From Rhodospirillaceae bacterium (GTDB lineage Bacteria; Pseudomonadota; Alphaproteobacteria; UBA6615), in NCBI GenBank assembly GCA_002713365.1, contig PASR01000007.1, forward strand, positions 9,323 through 62,266: a DNA stretch of 52,944 nucleotides. Reading direction: 5' to 3'. Both the position numbers and the translations under genes were made by a program. Under the pieces are notes generated by a model. That model was not told the DNA's origin and did no database searches. It saw only the letters and a list, made by a program, of their open reading frames with translations. This document shows, in pieces, positions 13,919-26,151 of this stretch. Every line of letters starts with the position of its first letter. The first letter of the stretch is position 1.

Positions 13919-14854
13919 TTATCTAACTGGTTCACGTTTCTGAAACCACTCAGGAAGATCAGTTTCTTGTTTGCCTGAAAAAATACATTGCATTTGTTCT
14001 TTAGCAATTTCAACATTGTCTTCTTGCGCATCAGGTTTTGTTTTAGCAATGCCAGATGTAAAGGCGGGCGGTGGTGCAAAGCACGTTGCACAGCGTCTTT
14101 TTTTAAGTTCTAAAGGAGGTTCCCCTTTAATTTTAGATATCTCATCTATCGCAGTGTTTATTGCCTCATCATTGCCATGAGCTGAAAGCACAATAGATCC
14201 CTCAGAACCAGAGACACCTCCACCCCCTACATGCGTTACATTAAGGTCAAACAATATATTGAAGGCTTGTATTTCAGTGATTATTTTTGCATTTATTAAT
14301 GGAAGCATACCTATTTTAGTGCCATAAAAATAGTCAACTTTGGCGTGTCCTAGTTCGGTACAGGCTTCCTTAACTGATGGTATTAGTTTTTCTAGTCCTA
14401 CAGGAACGATAAGAGGTATTCCCATTCCACAAATTTTACCATAGGCAAAACCAATGGTTCCTGCACCAGGGTGTGCATTAAAAATTGCTGCATTAAATTC
14501 AGGGTCTACGGCATTAGCACCCTTAATAAATAGGCACGTGTCGTCCCAACCAGCCATTGTCTCTTCCATAGTTGGAACGGGTGGCACTGGTATCCCTTTA
14601 ACGAGTCTCATTATGGCTGGTTTTTCTGACGGTTCCGTTTGACATAGTGTTCCATTTATTACTTGCCCAGAGACGTATTTGTCTCTTTCAGGGCAGTAAC
14701 CTAATACCTCTTCAGCTACATAAACATTTGTCGACCCATGGGCTATAATCATTTGTGAATGTTTAAGAGCATGTTGAACCTCTGGTAGATTGGATACGGC
14801 TCTACCTATCAGTCGTTTTGACTCCCAAGGTGTTAATGAAAAAACAGCACGCAT
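13919..14854 (-). CDS. Unknown family, tandem paralog 1
   Basis: 311 residues, no signal peptide or membrane helix. I do not recognise the family. It is a close paralog of the gene directly upstream, by eye about three quarters identical over the first 250 residues. Conserved in both: AHGSTNVYVAEEVLGYCPERDKY (42-60 region), GQVINGTLCQT, FIKGANAVDP, NAHPGAGTIGFAYGKICGMG-type glycine-rich loop near 127-145, a GGGGVSGSEG loop at 210-219 and a CxxC at 255-258. Glycine loops and conserved His, Asn and Asp suggest an enzyme or nucleotide/phosphate binder. The 43-bp gap to its paralog suggests one transcript. Confidence 0.7.
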   Translation of the reverse strand: MRAVFSLTPWESKRLIGRAVSNLPEVQHALKHSQMIIAHGSTNVYVAEEVLGYCPERDKYVSGQVINGTLCQTEPSEKPAIMRLVKGIPVPPVPTMEETMAGWDDTCLFIKGANAVDPEFNAAIFNAHPGAGTIGFAYGKICGMGIPLIVPVGLEKLIPSVKEACTELGHAKVDYFYGTKIGMLPLINAKIITEIQAFNILFDLNVTHVGGGGVSGSEGSIVLSAHGNDEAINTAIDEISKIKGEPPLELKKRRCATCFAPPPAFTSGIAKTKPDAQEDNVEIAKEQMQCIFSGKQETDLPEWFQKREPVR

Positions 14855-14895: not shown

Positions 14896-15801
14896 TTAAA
14901 CCAATTCACGTTTTATAAACCATTCTGGTAAGTCAGATTCTTTAGTTCCGCTATATATGCAAGTTTTTTGAGTGTTTTCTATAACTTGATCCCCATCAGC
15001 GGTTCGCAAGGCGGGTGTTGAGGGAATACACGATTCACATAATGCTTTTTTTAACGCTAATGGCGGTTCACCTTTTATAGATTCAAATTCGCTTATTGCC
15101 CGTTTTACTTTTTCTTTATCTCCATTTACCGATAATACGACTGTTCCCTCTGAACCTGATACACCGCCACCGCCAACATGTACGGCTTTTAAATCAAATA
15201 GTATATTAAAGGCCTGAATTTCAGTCACAACTTTAGCATTAATCAGTGGAAGCATACCTATTTTTTGACCATTAAAATAATCAACTCTTGAGTGACCTAG
15301 TTTGGTTGAAGCTTCTTTTACACAAGGGATAAGCTTTTCTAATCCCACTGGAACAATTAGGGGTATGCCCATTCCACAAATTTTACCATAGGCAAAACCA
15401 ATTGTACCGGCACTAGGATGAGCGTTGAAAACAGCCGCGTTAAAATTTGGATCGACAGCATTGGCACCTTTAATGAAAACACAAGTATTATCCCAGCCAG
15501 CAAGGGTTTCATCCATAGTAGGTACTGGCGGGACTGGGATGCCTTTTACCAAACGTATAATTGGTGGTTTTTCAGCAGATTCTGTTTGGCAAAGTGTACC
15601 ATTTATGACTTGTCCTGAAGCGTATTTATCCCTTTCCGGACAGTATCCTAATACTTCTTCTGCTACATAAACATTTGTTGATCCGTGAGCTATGACAATC
15701 TGAGTTTCTTCATACGCTCTGATTACCTCCGGTAATCTAGAAACTGCTCTACCAATTAGACGTTTAGATTCCCAAGGGTTTAGTGCAAAAACGGCTCGCA
15801 T
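14896..15801 (-). CDS. Unknown family, tandem paralog 2
   Basis: 301 residues, same layout as the downstream paralog: MRAVFALNPWESKRLIGRAV start, AHGSTNVYVAEEVLG, GTIGFAYGKICGMGIPLIVPVG, HVGGGGVSGSEG and a CESC motif near residue 255. The two differ most after that CxxC, where only short, unrelated tails remain. It lies 44 bp downstream of an HSL-type esterase on the same strand, so esterase and both paralogs may form one operon at the edge of the catabolic cluster. The function is not assignable from sequence. Confidence 0.7.
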   Translation of the reverse strand: MRAVFALNPWESKRLIGRAVSRLPEVIRAYEETQIVIAHGSTNVYVAEEVLGYCPERDKYASGQVINGTLCQTESAEKPPIIRLVKGIPVPPVPTMDETLAGWDNTCVFIKGANAVDPNFNAAVFNAHPSAGTIGFAYGKICGMGIPLIVPVGLEKLIPCVKEASTKLGHSRVDYFNGQKIGMLPLINAKVVTEIQAFNILFDLKAVHVGGGGVSGSEGTVVLSVNGDKEKVKRAISEFESIKGEPPLALKKALCESCIPSTPALRTADGDQVIENTQKTCIYSGTKESDLPEWFIKRELV

Positions 15802-17586: not shown

Positions 17587-18825
17587 CTAAAAAGAATTTA
17601 TTTCTTGATGGCCGAGGGAATTAATTAGAACTTCCTCATTAGGTGCTTTTTTATCATTTACTCTGTCGAGACACCAATCAGCTAGCATTGAATACCAATT
17701 TTCACCCAGGTAGGCGGCTGCTCCGCCACCAATGGCATGTCGTTCACCCTCATAGTAAACAAGTTTCTTAGGTACATTTAGTTTGCTAACTACATCGTCT
17801 GTACATTCAATTGGACTTAGTTCTTCGTCTTGTCCTGCTTGTATAAGAACGGGACAGGATATTTTATCTAATATAGGATTTAATGAAAATTCACTTATGA
17901 ACTCATCAAATTTATCTTCATCATCATAATTACTCATGAACATAAAACGTAATTTAAAAGAAGGAGCGGCCATATTAAATATGGTATAGCAACCTGGTTC
18001 ATGGCAAACAAAGCTTACTGCAGCGCCTTTAACTTTATCACCAAGCTGAGCAGCAGCTTGAAGCCCAAAAAAAGAGCCAAAACTTATGCCAAATATAACT
18101 AGTCGATCTTTATCTATGGCCGGGTGTTCTATTAACCAATCATAAACTGCTTGAGCAGCCTCCATATGATTATCTTTTGTTACGTATAAACCGTTTACGG
18201 GACACTCTCCTTGACCAGGTCCATCATAAACAAAGCTAGCCATTCCACGTTCTAGCATTTTGTCACCGTACATTGAGCACATGATTTCCTTAGATCCATC
18301 CATTCCGTCAATTCCAATAGCACAAGGAAATTTTTCTCCTTCTTTTGGTTCATGTGGAAGTGCCAGGAATCCTGGTAAAAAACTATCGCCAAAAGGAATT
18401 TCTACACGTTCAATTGGTCGGGGAGCGTATTTAATGTATTTGTCATAACACGTTACCATTTGTTTATTGTATTGAATGTGAAGATCGTTAGCCTCAAATA
18501 TTGGCCATCTAGCAGCAGAATAGAGCAGGGAGGCAATAAAATAACTTTCGCGAGCGGATACATAGCGTTCTTGTTCTTCAAATGATTGAGCTTTTATCTC
18601 ACGACGTTTTGCTGCACCTGCAAATTCTCGATGCATATCGTTAAACTTTTTTGTTCGCATTCCAACCGTTCGGAAATCACCAACTGCGTCAGGACCGCAT
18701 GGGAACATAGTATAACCTAAACGAGGTTGGTCCCATTCCATGCCTACGCTGGATATAATAGCATCTAGTATCCACCGCTGTTCAGCCCATCTTTTCATTT
18801 TTTGTTCTGTGAAAGCCTTCATCAT
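17587..18825 (-). CDS. Alpha/beta hydrolase resembling 2,6-dihydroxypseudooxynicotine hydrolase / FrsA
   Basis: 412 residues from the ATG at 18825, which has AGGA nine bases upstream; an ATG at 18843 has no ribosome site. About 140 N-terminal helical residues form a cap (YFIASLLYSAARWPIFEAND), followed by the hydrolase core. The nucleophile is Ser248 in GISFGS, the acid Asp333 in AGQDEE and the base His363 in GERHA. The layout and the PFGDSFLPGFLALP and GMASFVYDGPGQGE segments resemble the C-C hydrolase of nicotine degradation in Arthrobacter and FrsA-type esterases. A C-C or C-N bond hydrolysis in ring catabolism is plausible. Confidence 0.75.
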   Translation of the reverse strand: MMKAFTEQKMKRWAEQRWILDAIISSVGMEWDQPRLGYTMFPCGPDAVGDFRTVGMRTKKFNDMHREFAGAAKRREIKAQSFEEQERYVSARESYFIASLLYSAARWPIFEANDLHIQYNKQMVTCYDKYIKYAPRPIERVEIPFGDSFLPGFLALPHEPKEGEKFPCAIGIDGMDGSKEIMCSMYGDKMLERGMASFVYDGPGQGECPVNGLYVTKDNHMEAAQAVYDWLIEHPAIDKDRLVIFGISFGSFFGLQAAAQLGDKVKGAAVSFVCHEPGCYTIFNMAAPSFKLRFMFMSNYDDEDKFDEFISEFSLNPILDKISCPVLIQAGQDEELSPIECTDDVVSKLNVPKKLVYYEGERHAIGGGAAAYLGENWYSMLADWCLDRVNDKKAPNEEVLINSLGHQEINSF

Positions 18826-19019
18826 GATGGTGTTTCCTTTCATAAAATCAATTTATTAATTTACAATAGAATTAATGATAAAGCATTATTCATAATATGG
18901 CAGTATATATTCTATTGCATAATAGAGTTTATTTTGGTGTTTAAGTTTTACTTATCTAATTTTCTACTAAATGCTAATATTGCTAAAGAATTAGAGTCAA
19001 TGTTCTAGGGGGAATTAAT

Positions 19020-20102
19020 ATGCGTGTTCCAGCAGCATCAAGACATCAAGAAATTAATCCAGCAAAGTTACCTGGTTTGTTTTTAAAACAATTTACCATG
19101 TCTAAAGTAAAGGCTGGAGAAACGATGGTACTGCTGAGTGATATGTCTACACGTCCTGAATATGTGCAGGCGGCATTTGCTGCTGCAGAAATACTGGAGG
19201 CCAATATATATGAGTTACGTGTCAATATGGTGCCATCCTGGACTAAGGTCGGTATTGATACTATTGGAGTAACAAAGGGAGTAAAGGAGGCATTAATAGC
19301 TGCTGATATTGTAGTAGCCCTTCATATACCCCTCTTTACTGATTGGCTTCGGGAAGTAATGAGTACTGGTACACGGTTCCTAATGATTATAGATTCTCCT
19401 GATGATTTAGAAACATTATTAGCGCCGAAAGGGCTTAAAGAAGCTGTCATGTATGCTCATAACCTTCTACAAAAAACAAAAAAGGTTCAAATACTGAGCG
19501 ATGCTGGAACCGATTTAATTTATGAATGTGGAGAATATCCAGTAATGAGTCAGTGGGGGTTTTCTGACGAACCAGCTCATTTTGATCATTGGGGAGTAGG
19601 ACATACCCATACATTTCCCAATGAAGGGAGTGCGAACGGGACTGTAGTTCTAAATTCAGGGGACATAGTTGTACTGCCATTTTGTAGATATATTCAGGGC
19701 CAAGTAAAACTTGAAATAAGAGATGGTTTTATTCGTAATATAGAAGGTGAATTAGACGCTAAGTTAATGAAAGATTGGCTTGAAGATAATAAAATAGCTG
19801 AAGATGATATTGATCCTTATGCTGTATCTCATTTGGGTTGGGGAATGAATCCTCAGGCCAGATGGTACAATATTGCTTTAAATGGAGATGATCCTGAAAG
19901 GGCACATGCTTCGGCGAGGGTATTCCCTGGAAATTTCCTTTTTTCCACTGGTCCAAATACTCAAGGTGGAGGACAAAGGAATACTAAAGGTCATTATGAT
20001 GTACCTATGCAGGATTGCACTATTATTTTGGATAATAATATGATTATTGAAAGGGGTCGGATCGTAGAAGAAGCCATGATAGTTGAGAGGGAAACAAGAT
20101 AA
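19020..20102 (+). CDS. NicX-like 2,5-dihydroxypyridine 5,6-dioxygenase / M29-fold protein
   Basis: 360 residues, ATG preceded by AGGGGGA. It is related in sequence to M29 leucyl aminopeptidases and to NicX, the Fe(II) enzyme that opens 2,5-dihydroxypyridine to N-formylmaleamate. The NicX iron ligands are reported as His265, His318 and Asp320. Here His271 (SHLGWGMNP) and His325-x-Asp327 (KGHYDVP) match in spacing, 54 against 53. The next gene starts right after its stop and encodes a formamidase-like hydrolase, which is the expected next step. Substrate identity is inferred. A true aminopeptidase cannot be excluded. Confidence 0.7.
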   Translation: MRVPAASRHQEINPAKLPGLFLKQFTMSKVKAGETMVLLSDMSTRPEYVQAAFAAAEILEANIYELRVNMVPSWTKVGIDTIGVTKGVKEALIAADIVVALHIPLFTDWLREVMSTGTRFLMIIDSPDDLETLLAPKGLKEAVMYAHNLLQKTKKVQILSDAGTDLIYECGEYPVMSQWGFSDEPAHFDHWGVGHTHTFPNEGSANGTVVLNSGDIVVLPFCRYIQGQVKLEIRDGFIRNIEGELDAKLMKDWLEDNKIAEDDIDPYAVSHLGWGMNPQARWYNIALNGDDPERAHASARVFPGNFLFSTGPNTQGGGQRNTKGHYDVPMQDCTIILDNNMIIERGRIVEEAMIVERETR

Positions 20103-20933
20103 ATGACACTTCGTAAAATAGAGGATTATCCACCTCAAGAACCTTTTTCAGAAATAGGGATCAAATATAATATTGAAGCCCAAAGGCTTAGTGCTGGGAT
20201 TAAAGGTCAATCTTTTTCTTATGGCGCCGACCCTTATCAGGAAGTAGCTGTGTTTGAATCTAAAGTACCAAACGGCACTATATTAGCATTTATGCATGGA
20301 GGTGGTTGGGTTAACGGTTATAAGGAATGGGTAGCATTTATGGCCCCTGCAATGAACGCAGCAGGTATAACTTTTATTAGTATCGGATACCGGTTAGCGC
20401 CTAAATTTATGTGGCCGACTGGAATTGAAGATGTATCAATGGCTCTAAAATGGATATATGAAAATATTCATTCATATGGAGGGGATCCTTCTAGATTATT
20501 TATAAGCGGGCATTCAGCAGGTGGACACTATGCATCTTGGATGGCGGTTAGAAACGATTGGCAGAAAAACATAGGTTTACCAGACAATCTTATACGAGGT
20601 GCATTACCTATATCAGGGGTTTATGATTTTACTCCGGGTAATGGTATGGCGATGCGCCCACGGTTTCTTGGTGAAAATGGCACTAATGATATTGACGCCA
20701 GTCCATTGCATAATATCATAAATACTCCGCCATTTTACATAACTTGGGGAGACGATGATTTACCACCACTAATACCCCAAGCAAAGAAAATGGCGGATGC
20801 ATTAATAGCCTCGGGGTGCGATGTAACAACACAAATATTAAATAACTGTAACCATTCTGAGGCTTCTTATGAAAGTTATAAAGCTGATGGTCAGTGGGTG
20901 CCCGAAGTTTTGAAATGGATGGAATCTCATTAA
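20103..20933 (+). CDS. Alpha/beta hydrolase, formamidase-like (possible N-formyl amide hydrolase)
   Basis: 276 residues. The ATG follows the TAA of the NicX-like gene without a gap, so the two are translationally linked. HGGGW at 65-69 and GHSAGGH with Ser138, plus Asp217 or 218 (TWGDDD) and His251 (NCNHSEA), give a full triad. The HGGxW and GHSAGxH pair is typical of kynurenine formamidase (AFMID/BNA7-like) and related deformylases. With the dioxygenase before it, hydrolysis of an N-formyl product such as N-formylmaleamate is an attractive reading, by analogy to NicD. The reaction itself is inferred. Confidence 0.75.
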   Translation: MTLRKIEDYPPQEPFSEIGIKYNIEAQRLSAGIKGQSFSYGADPYQEVAVFESKVPNGTILAFMHGGGWVNGYKEWVAFMAPAMNAAGITFISIGYRLAPKFMWPTGIEDVSMALKWIYENIHSYGGDPSRLFISGHSAGGHYASWMAVRNDWQKNIGLPDNLIRGALPISGVYDFTPGNGMAMRPRFLGENGTNDIDASPLHNIINTPPFYITWGDDDLPPLIPQAKKMADALIASGCDVTTQILNNCNHSEASYESYKADGQWVPEVLKWMESH

Positions 20934-20951
20934 GAACGAAACATTATATTC

Positions 20952-21812
20952 ATGAAAATTTTTGTAACTGATGGGAACTGTTGTACAGGGAAGGCTGTAA
21001 TCAAAGAACTAGTAAGCCTTGGTGCTGAAGTTTATGGATTAGTACCTGATGATACTTCTGCCTATGAAATTGAAAAACTAGGTGGGCGAACACTGATTGG
21101 TGATATACGAGATGAATATATTTTAGAAAAAGGAATTAAAGCTGCAGATAAAATTTATCATGTATGTCCATCGTGGATATTAGATGAGATAGAAGTTGCC
21201 AATAAAATTATAAAAATCTCTCAAGGCTCTGACATATCTCTTCTTGGTTACCATAGCGTAATGACTCCACATTTCGATAGCGTGCCATCACTTTGGAACA
21301 AAATGCAGGTGCAGATGCTATTGATGAAAAGTCATTTACCTTTTACCGTTATTCAACCCGCTATTTATATGCAAAGCTTATTTGATTCGATGGTTATTGA
21401 ATCGGATAGTATAAAATTTGAATTACCCTTTAATCCGGACGCACAAATCTCTTGGGTTGATATTGATGATGTAGCAAATGCTGTTGCATTAATATTAACA
21501 AGGCCTAATCATGTTGGGGGAACATACGAGCTTTGTGGAACTGATGCTCCAATAAGTTGTTTTAATGTTTTAAAAGAAATAGACAATTTGTCGTTGAAGA
21601 ACATAGAATTGATAGATGTGCCGGTTTATGAGGATGAAAATATTTCATTCATAAATAAATATAATTCTAAGCAAATGAATCACCAGAAACTTTACTATGA
21701 CTTTATAAATGCAAATGGAATGAGAGCTGGTAATAGCAAGGTCTTAACCATGCTATTACAAAGGTCTCCAAATTCATTTAAACGTGCTTTTAATCTTAAA
21801 TACCAGCTCTAA
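20952..21812 (+). CDS. NmrA-like / atypical short-chain dehydrogenase with degenerate nucleotide motif
   Basis: 286 residues of the NmrA-like extended SDR type. The start MKIFVTDGNCCTGKAVIKEL sits where the Rossmann GxxGxxG should be, but the middle Gly is replaced (GNCCTG). NAD(P) binding may therefore be weak or lost. The later pattern LIGDIRD, ADKIYHV, LPFTVIQPAIYMQSL, WVDIDDVANAV and GGTYELCG follows the family. A paralog with an intact motif lies 0.7 kb downstream. A redox enzyme or, if NAD(P) binding is lost, a sensor are both possible. It is 18 bp after the formamidase-like gene, likely in the same transcript. Confidence 0.75.
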   Translation: MKIFVTDGNCCTGKAVIKELVSLGAEVYGLVPDDTSAYEIEKLGGRTLIGDIRDEYILEKGIKAADKIYHVCPSWILDEIEVANKIIKISQGSDISLLGYHSVMTPHFDSVPSLWNKMQVQMLLMKSHLPFTVIQPAIYMQSLFDSMVIESDSIKFELPFNPDAQISWVDIDDVANAVALILTRPNHVGGTYELCGTDAPISCFNVLKEIDNLSLKNIELIDVPVYEDENISFINKYNSKQMNHQKLYYDFINANGMRAGNSKVLTMLLQRSPNSFKRAFNLKYQL

Positions 21813-22495: not shown

Positions 22496-23368
22496 ATGAT
22501 ATTAATAAGTGGAGCTAATGGTGCAGCAGGACGTTCTGTTATAAAGCACCTTGTTAAAAAAGGATTGGCTCCCAGAGCTCTTGTAAGTAATAACAAATCT
22601 GCTGATGAAGTTATGAAATTAGGCGCAAGACCATTTGTAGGTGATATGCGCGATGTTTCCGTGCAAAAAAATGCTATGGATGGTATTTCAACCATATATC
22701 ATATTGCACCCGGACTTATACCAAACGAGCTTTGCCTTTCTCGTAATTTTATAGCCAGTGCAAAAGCTTTATCTATAGACCGGTTTATATTGCATGGAGT
22801 TAGTTATCCTTATGCTCCAGATATTGAATTTCATTGGACTAAGATGAAGCTTGAAGCAGAATTATTATTATCTGGACTTCAATACACTATTATTAGGCCA
22901 ACTCAATTTATGCAAAATATCATATGGTCGCTCCCTCAAATAATTGCCACAGGTGAGTTTGGTTTGCCTTATAGTCCAAATATAAGTATGGGCTTTGTAG
23001 ATGTTGATGATTTAGGGAAAGCTGTATCAAAAGTTTTAACGGAGAAAGGTCATTCTGGTGCCACATATGAACTCTGTAGTATTAAAAAGCCAATAAATCG
23101 GCATGATATAGCGGTTGCACTTACTGAGGCATTTGGCGTTCGAATTAGAGCGACACGGTGTTCTTTTGACGATCTGAGGTCATCTCATTTTTTTTCAAGC
23201 TTAAGTAAAAATCAGTTACAGGAATTATCTAATATGTATGACCATATAGATCAATTTGGTACGGCTTACTTTAATAATGAGGTTTTAGAAATGTTAACAG
23301 GTGAACCGAGTACTAATTATTATGAGTTTGCAAAACGGTTGCCTTCTATAATTAATTCAATGCGATAA
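22496..23368 (+). CDS. NmrA-like NAD(P)-binding oxidoreductase
   Basis: 290 residues. An intact Rossmann motif GANGAAGRSVIKHL starts at residue 6, followed by VGDMRD, STIYHIAPG, RFILHGVSYPYAP, LQYTIIRPTQFMQN and GFVDVDDLGKAV. This is the NmrA / atypical SDR family, which includes isoflavone-reductase-like and quinone-reductase-like enzymes. It is a paralog of the gene at 20952, with which it shares the WNKM / WTKMK and TYELC segments. Likely an NAD(P)H-dependent reductase acting on a ring or enone intermediate, by context only. Confidence 0.78.
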   Translation: MILISGANGAAGRSVIKHLVKKGLAPRALVSNNKSADEVMKLGARPFVGDMRDVSVQKNAMDGISTIYHIAPGLIPNELCLSRNFIASAKALSIDRFILHGVSYPYAPDIEFHWTKMKLEAELLLSGLQYTIIRPTQFMQNIIWSLPQIIATGEFGLPYSPNISMGFVDVDDLGKAVSKVLTEKGHSGATYELCSIKKPINRHDIAVALTEAFGVRIRATRCSFDDLRSSHFFSSLSKNQLQELSNMYDHIDQFGTAYFNNEVLEMLTGEPSTNYYEFAKRLPSIINSMR

Positions 23369-25272: not shown

Positions 25273-26151
25273 TTAATCAAGTTCAATCGTATTTTTTAAA
25301 ATACCTATATTAGTGATTTCGACTTCTACCGTGTCCCCGCTCTTCATCCAAAGCGGCGGTTGTCTAGCGTGCCCAACCCCGCTTGGTGTCCCAGTAACTA
25401 TTATATCTCCGGGATATATTTCTATAAAAGTGGATATATATGAAATTAAATCAGGTATTTTAAATATTAGGTCTGCAACACTTTCATGCTGTACTACTGA
25501 TCCATTAAGGCGTGTCTCTAAAACTAGAGAATCTGGATTTAGTATCTCGTCGGAGGTTACCATGCATGGCCCAAAAGCACCGGAATGGAAGAAGTTTTTC
25601 CCCTGTAAGTACGTAGTTGAATGTCTTTGCCAATCTCTTACAGATCCTTCATTGTAGCAGCTATAACCGGCAACAAATTGCATTGCTTCTTCTTTTTTAA
25701 CTCTTCTACCTTTTCTACCTATTATTACGGCTAATTCACCTTCATAATCCAATTGAGAAGATTCGCGCGGTAATAGAATAGCTTGGCCGTCACCCACATG
25801 ACTTTCTGGCCATCTAGGAAACAAGATAGGGGTATCTGGAATTTGGTTTCCGGTTTCTGATGCATGTTTTTGATAATTTAACCCTACGCAAATTATTTTC
25901 TTCGGATTTGTGATGGGGGGTAATAGCTGAATATCCTTTATGGGATAATCAGATGTCTTTCCTCCACCTCCGCCAAAACCAGTATTTAAGTAATTTTTTA
26001 CCTTTTCTTGCATGGATATATCGCAGGATAGAAAATCACGTAATGTTGGAATATCTTTAATAAATTCTGCCCCCAGATCAATAATTCCACCATCTGGTCC
26101 GTAAGTTCCCCAGGAACTCCTATTTACATGAATAAAACTAATGTATTTCAT
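25273..26151 (-). CDS. Fumarylacetoacetate hydrolase (FAH) family protein
   Basis: 292 residues. The C-terminal FAH domain begins at PKKIICVGLNYQKHASE and continues with the metal-binding YEGELAVIIGRKG (Glu, Glu), GYSCYNEGSVRDWQ (Asp) and GTPSGVG loop. These are the residues used for Mg-dependent C-C hydrolysis, decarboxylation or hydration of 2-oxo acids, as in fumarylpyruvate hydrolase and 2-hydroxyhepta-2,4-diene-1,7-dioate isomerase. It is convergent with the dehydrogenase, separated by under 10 bp. The position beside a VOC dioxygenase fits the lower steps of ring cleavage. Confidence 0.87.
   Translation of the reverse strand: MKYISFIHVNRSSWGTYGPDGGIIDLGAEFIKDIPTLRDFLSCDISMQEKVKNYLNTGFGGGGGKTSDYPIKDIQLLPPITNPKKIICVGLNYQKHASETGNQIPDTPILFPRWPESHVGDGQAILLPRESSQLDYEGELAVIIGRKGRRVKKEEAMQFVAGYSCYNEGSVRDWQRHSTTYLQGKNFFHSGAFGPCMVTSDEILNPDSLVLETRLNGSVVQHESVADLIFKIPDLISYISTFIEIYPGDIIVTGTPSGVGHARQPPLWMKSGDTVEVEITNIGILKNTIELD

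Follow-up and report, generated by a model that had tools for sequence, protein, structure and literature searches.

The gene pair and its surroundings

The window (the whole stretch of DNA analysed, 52,944 nt, of marine bacterial origin) carries two reading frames that abut exactly on the plus strand. The first, at 19020-20102 (360 aa), encodes a NicX-fold protein and ends with TAA; it is named nicX2 here. The ATG of the second, at 20103-20933 (276 aa), begins at the base right after this stop and opens a hydrolase gene. The preliminary description had placed two open reading frames at these positions with no gap between them, and this is indeed the arrangement found; what it called "fused in expression" corresponds, in the letters, to two abutting genes. 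The features referred to below are the following.

17587..18843, minus strand: FrsA-like alpha/beta hydrolase gene, divergent from nicX2 and adjoining it in nearly all family loci
19007..19012, plus strand: Shine-Dalgarno-like AGGGGG, 7 nt upstream of the nicX2 ATG, from sequence
19020..20102, plus strand: nicX2, NicX-fold protein of a separate clade, probable Fe(II) ring-cleaving dioxygenase
20085..20091, plus strand: Shine-Dalgarno-like GAGAGGG within the nicX2 3' end, ahead of the hydrolase ATG, from sequence
20103..20933, plus strand: Abhydrolase_3/BD-FAE serine hydrolase, proposed N-formyl amide hydrolase
25273..26151, minus strand: gene of the FAA_hydrolase family, in conserved synteny in several family loci

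The FrsA-like hydrolase is 84-94% identical within the family, better conserved than nicX2 itself, and its relatives include 2,6-dihydroxypseudooxynicotine hydrolase (2jbw) and AntI; that it belongs to the nicX2 pathway is possible but unproven. The same holds for the FAA_hydrolase-family gene as a downstream C-C hydrolase, a possible role that is likewise unproven. Just past the pair, two NmrA-type genes on the plus strand (20952-21812 and 22496-23368) flank a divergent cupin gene; they are found in some family loci and missing from others. On the minus strand, 13919-14854 and 14896-15801 are neighbouring, closely similar genes for proteins of about 300 aa, to which neither a Pfam nor an NCBIfam family could be assigned. 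Their order is kept in a same-genus genome, and a PDB sequence search with the product of 14896-15801 gave no significant match.

As the preliminary description had remarked for nicAB, nicE and nicF, the usual nicotinate genes are missing from the neighbourhood: when the translations of the window reading frames were read, none corresponded to nicAB, nicD, nicE or nicF. The genome from which the window derives (2.5 Mb, estimated 100% complete) lacks any homologue of NicE and an orthologue of NicF, with only partial NicF-like matches at 26-33% identity. The type of molybdenum hydroxylase found in nicX2 operons elsewhere (see below) is also absent from this genome, which contains 13 relatives at 29-37% identity. 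Thirteen molybdenum-hydroxylase large subunits in 2.5 Mb looks like a high load.

NicX2 fold, active site and clade

NicX2 matches the 2,5-dihydroxypyridine 5,6-dioxygenase NicX of Pseudomonas putida KT2440 (PDB 7cn3) with an E value of 3.3e-65 over window-protein residues 13-350, with identity at 121 of 332 positions (35%); a family search assigned it to no Pfam or NCBIfam family. Its AlphaFold model has a mean pLDDT of 87.8 and superimposes on NicX with Z 44.5 and rmsd 1.7 over 338 residues (Foldseek E 1.4e-40), so that the original NicX-like call holds at the level of both sequence and fold. The second-best fold group consists of M29 aminopeptidases, and many NicX2 homologues carry the annotation leucyl aminopeptidase. 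Both facts could suggest that NicX2 is an M29-type aminopeptidase, or some other metallohydrolase, and no oxygenase. However, the likeness to the M29 enzymes (PepS, AmpS, AmpT) is distant, at Z 21-22 and 11-15% identity; no M29 match appears in Pfam even up to E 10; and the His-Ser-His-Asp iron site of NicX is intact in NicX2. The preliminary description had named a placement within M29, with conserved glutamate metal ligands, as one outcome that would overturn its reading; by Pfam and fold scores the protein does not fall inside M29. An M29 peptidase was rejected on these scores, and we regard an M29-type or other metallohydrolase as very improbable.

The iron in NicX is held by His265, Ser302, His318 and Asp320, the Asp being positioned by Arg293; Glu177 hydrogen-bonds N1 and O1 of 2,5-dihydroxypyridine, and His189 bonds O1 (PMC7910607). 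In the alignment the four ligands correspond to His271, Ser309, His325 and Asp327 of NicX2. The three ligands originally proposed (His271, His325, Asp327) were therefore numbered correctly, Ser309 being the fourth. The Arg293, His189 and Leu104 equivalents are also retained, the first two as Arg300 and His190. In contrast, residues on the substrate side have changed: Glu177 is replaced by Gln178, Val175 by Met176, Glu308 by Gln315 and His105 by Phe106.

Scanning a genome collection yielded a clade set of 80 loci at 60-83% identity; the tree and alignment contain 80 clade rows, made up of 79 loci and the window. All four iron ligands and the Arg293 equivalent are found in 80 of 80 rows. The substrate-side changes are almost as uniform, with Gln at the Glu177 position and Met176 both invariant across the 80 sequences and Gln at the Glu308 position in 76; the His189 position holds His in 67, and Gln, Leu or Met in the others. 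Glu177 is kept in all five reference NicX proteins. The change of His105 to Phe was considered as a marker of altered specificity and dropped: NicX of Shinella, Azospirillum, G105 and G379 retain Glu177 and yet have Phe at this position, which leaves only the Glu changes as informative. A separate set of NicX homologues (L022-L024 and L027-L030) has Val or Gly where NicX has Glu177 and lacks two residues after the iron serine; as judged from these residues, they may possibly represent a third specificity.

In a maximum-likelihood tree the 80 clade rows group together behind a branch of length 1.92 with 100/100 support, and NicX of P. putida, Shinella, Azospirillum, G105 and G379 fall outside. 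The phylogeny that the preliminary description had proposed as a check against characterised NicX proteins thus sets NicX2 apart from them. Most clade members belong to Alpha-, Beta- and Gammaproteobacteria (the names of several metagenome bins are doubtful), with named strains in Variovorax, Pusillimonas, Eoetvoesiella, Neopusillimonas, Ramlibacter and Bradyrhizobium; cultured carriers include Pusillimonas noertemannii DSM 10065, Eoetvoesiella caeni DSM 25520 and Variovorax sp. YR216. At 60% identity or more, nicX2 occurs in 15 of 385 alphaproteobacterial genomes. Within the window's family, 17 of 24 genomes have it at 74% or more. Beyond those, an even sample of 398 genomes across the phylum contained no further close relative, and the clade is therefore not common. 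A search of plasmids found no member at 60% identity or above.

The partner hydrolase and the operons

The hydrolase belongs to the Abhydrolase_3/BD-FAE families and carries an HGGGW oxyanion motif and a GHSAGG motif. Its predicted catalytic triad is Ser138-Asp219-His251; among 32 orthologues Ser138 and His251 are invariant and Asp219 is at least 90% conserved. The "formamidase motifs" of the preliminary description are thus present, but they are common to many esterases. AFMID-type kynurenine formamidase is itself an alpha/beta-hydrolase with an HGGxW-type oxyanion motif. The model (pLDDT 91.8) has the fold of hormone-sensitive-lipase-like esterases and of kynurenine formamidase, and because both have it, the substrate cannot be read from the fold. 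A homologue of NicD was ruled out as an identity for this protein, the two falling in different Pfam families with no significant BLASTP similarity.

Among the alphaproteobacterial genomes the two genes occur strictly together. An orthologue of the hydrolase (E <= 1e-80) is present in each of the 15 nicX2 genomes, always on one contig with nicX2, and in 0 of the 370 others; one additional genome of the 385 has a 41% relative. In the clade set the hydrolase lies within 7 kb of nicX2 in 47 of 80 loci, and in 21 of the 80 it follows directly, within 60 bp, the two genes overlapping by 1 or 4 bp in several cases. Where loci of the window's family hold both genes, the spacing is always 0, 1 or -1 bp. 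No hydrolase occurs within 7 kb in the remaining 33 loci, a contig end explaining some of them. Strict co-occurrence across the genomes of the class and tight spacing in the family indicate that the pairing is not due to chance, and on these comparisons nicX2 and the hydrolase gene are taken to be a real unit. A second paralogue of the hydrolase in the window's genome (G000:C10:80153) has no neighbours with a catabolic link.

The same figures bear on the idea that the hydrolase works on a side group, as an esterase or lactonase would, and merely shares an operon with the dioxygenase. Its nearest solved relatives are the esterases 4zrs and 9n8r, and in the fold search kynurenine formamidase 4e15 (Z 25.3, against 27.8) is just one of many similar structures and lies among esterases at Z 25-28. 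Against this, the hydrolase strictly accompanies a NicX-type enzyme, and the known NicX reaction yields an N-formyl amide; we consider a side-group esterase unlikely.

Outside the window's family, nicX2 takes part in larger operons. In Rhodospirillales, Comamonadaceae and others the order is TetR, nicX2, CoxG, FAD subunit, 2Fe2S subunit, molybdopterin subunit, hydrolase and a branched-chain-type ABC transporter. Of the 80 loci, 23 have a molybdenum subunit of one orthologous type (at least 50% identical), and 21 of these have the hydrolase too; the transporter often joins operons that have this hydroxylase. The best match of the subunit is 4-hydroxybenzoyl-CoA reductase, and N-heterocycle hydroxylases such as quinoline 2-oxidoreductase and nicotinate dehydrogenase match it as well. 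In a gammaproteobacterial group an FAD monooxygenase and a different molybdenum hydroxylase adjoin nicX2. Eight loci (L085, L093, L097, L103, L115 and L122-L124) have members of a single sequence cluster near nicX2, the one in L103 being gentisate 1,2-dioxygenase-like. No gene similar to NicD, NicE or NicF at 35% identity or more was found within 7 kb of nicX2 in the 80 loci. Two genomes, G105 and G379, possess a complete nicE-nicD-nicX-nicF set, in which NicX keeps Glu177, together with a nicX2 operon elsewhere. A literature search did not find a paper describing the nicX2 operon.

Proposed reactions and related systems

Altogether, these data suggest that the pair is central to a catabolic module whose substrate is a hydroxylated N-heteroaromatic different from 2,5-dihydroxypyridine, the nicotinate intermediate; we give this reading a probability of about 0.55. 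NicX2 would bind one Fe(II) through His271, Ser309, His325 and Asp327 and activate O2. Cleavage would then fall between a hydroxylated carbon and the carbon beside the nitrogen and leave an N-formyl group, which the abutting serine hydrolase would take off. In many other bacteria the ring compound would probably be imported by the branched-chain-type ABC transporter and pre-hydroxylated by the four-subunit molybdenum hydroxylase; in the window's family this step would have to be supplied by a gene at another place or by a different enzyme. The 33 loci with no hydrolase within 7 kb and the lack of an operon-type molybdenum hydroxylase in the window's genome count against the reading. Ring cleavage followed by N-formyl hydrolysis is proposed because fold, iron site, partner gene and operon company agree. 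A substrate other than the nicotinate intermediate is proposed because Glu177 is invariantly lost, NicE and NicF are absent and a full nic set coexists with the module. The suggestion made at the outset that the pair could act on a different N-heterocycle thus gains support, as an inference, from the Glu177 to Gln change, the separate clade, the absence of nic genes and the two genomes with both systems. Activity of NicX on substrates other than 2,5-dihydroxypyridine has not been reported (PMC7910607).

The pair could instead carry out the classical NicX and NicD steps, from 2,5-dihydroxypyridine to maleamate by way of N-formylmaleamate, with a 3-hydroxypyridine-type molybdenum dehydrogenase as the supplier in place of the nicotinate enzymes. 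The retained iron ligands and the His189, Arg293 and Leu104 equivalents fit such a scheme, and Glu to Gln is a conservative change: as far as residues can tell, the window protein could still hold 2,5-dihydroxypyridine. Many operons contain a molybdenum hydroxylase whose CoxG/SRPBCC subunit is a protein of its own. In this they resemble the 3-hydroxypyridine cluster of Ensifer adhaerens HP1, where such a hydroxylase, its SRPBCC subunit again separate, reportedly lies close to the gene of a pyridinediol dioxygenase. Breakdown of 3-hydroxypyridine in Agrobacterium DW-1 does pass through 2,5-dihydroxypyridine (PMC6525221). Several findings speak against these classical steps, namely the replacement of Glu177 in 80 of 80 sequences, the lack of NicE and NicF homologues beside the module, the lack of next-step genes in the window's genome and the additional complete nic set in two genomes, and we hold the classical route to be doubtful.

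A special case of the preferred reading, ring opening of another N-heteroaromatic, has NicX2 producing an N-formyl enamine. The hydrolase would remove the formyl group, a Rid/RutC protein or water would then deaminate the enamine, and the final step would fall to an FAA-type hydrolase. A precedent exists in the degradation of 3,4-dihydroxypyridine, where KpiC makes an N-formyl enamine; the FAA_hydrolase gene of the window recalls KpiD of that cluster (PMC7356986), although it may be merely syntenic. In G395, a genome of the window's family, the gene order is RutD-like, nicX2-like, RutC equivalog (175.8 bits, cut-off 169.1) and hydrolase. This locus (L143, G395:C23, 1624-13673) has two nicX2-like genes that share 71% identity with one another and 46-50% with the clade, along with its RutC, RutD-like and hydrolase genes, and may possibly link NicX-type ring cleavage with Rut-like enamine chemistry. 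A Rid protein gene also follows nicX2 in L095, and the groups that Glu177 touches, the 2-oxygen and N-H, would be missing from such a substrate. However, a Rid gene was found in just 1 of the 80 clade loci, and a molybdenum hydroxylase would be expected to hydroxylate beside the ring nitrogen. With Rid genes this rare beside the clade, the enamine route stays a minority hypothesis with a small chance of being right.

Stated more fully, the preferred reading is that a NicX-fold lineage changed its substrate and cleaves a different N-heteroaromatic, giving an N-formyl compound (perhaps an enamine) which a formamidase-like hydrolase other than NicD processes, and that this module, spread across Alpha-, Beta- and Gammaproteobacteria, serves a partly marine pathway of N-heterocycle breakdown; to this whole we give even odds. 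Non-heme iron oxygenases of the NicX type, in which a serine helps to bind the iron, make up a small class. If the reading is true, the class would gain a second substrate group, formed by a bounded sister clade with an intact iron site, a changed main contact and a hydrolase of its own, and nicX2 could be used to recognise N-heterocycle breakdown in the genomes of marine and soil bacteria. The cultured Pusillimonas, Eoetvoesiella and Variovorax carriers make this testable now.

Among known systems, P. putida NicX (PDB 7cn3/7cup) shares with NicX2 its fold, length, four iron ligands and the Arg293, Leu104 and His189 positions, but differs in clade, gene context and, at 35% identity, in having Glu177, Val175 and Glu308 where NicX2 has Gln, Met and Gln. 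The N-formylmaleamate deformylase NicD (PDB 4l0c type) is likewise an alpha/beta-hydrolase encoded next to a NicX-type gene, but is of the Abhydrolase_1/6 families. AFMID-type kynurenine formamidase (PDB 4e11/4e15) resembles the hydrolase in fold over nearly its full length, but at only 18-20% identity, and esterases match equally well or better. The E. adhaerens HP1 cluster is said to combine a similar hydroxylase with a ring dioxygenase, but, unlike the nicX2 operon, to need extra phosphoenolpyruvate-utilising proteins for its dehydrogenase. KpiC, KpiB and KpiD of Arthrobacter IN13, which act in 4-hydroxypyridine degradation, follow the same logic of ring-cleaving dioxygenase, alpha/beta-hydrolase deformylase and FAA-type hydrolase, whereas KpiC itself belongs to the amidohydrolase family and has no relation to NicX. 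With a putative substrate and two predicted activities, the nicX2 module thus reads as a variation on the NicX/NicD theme.
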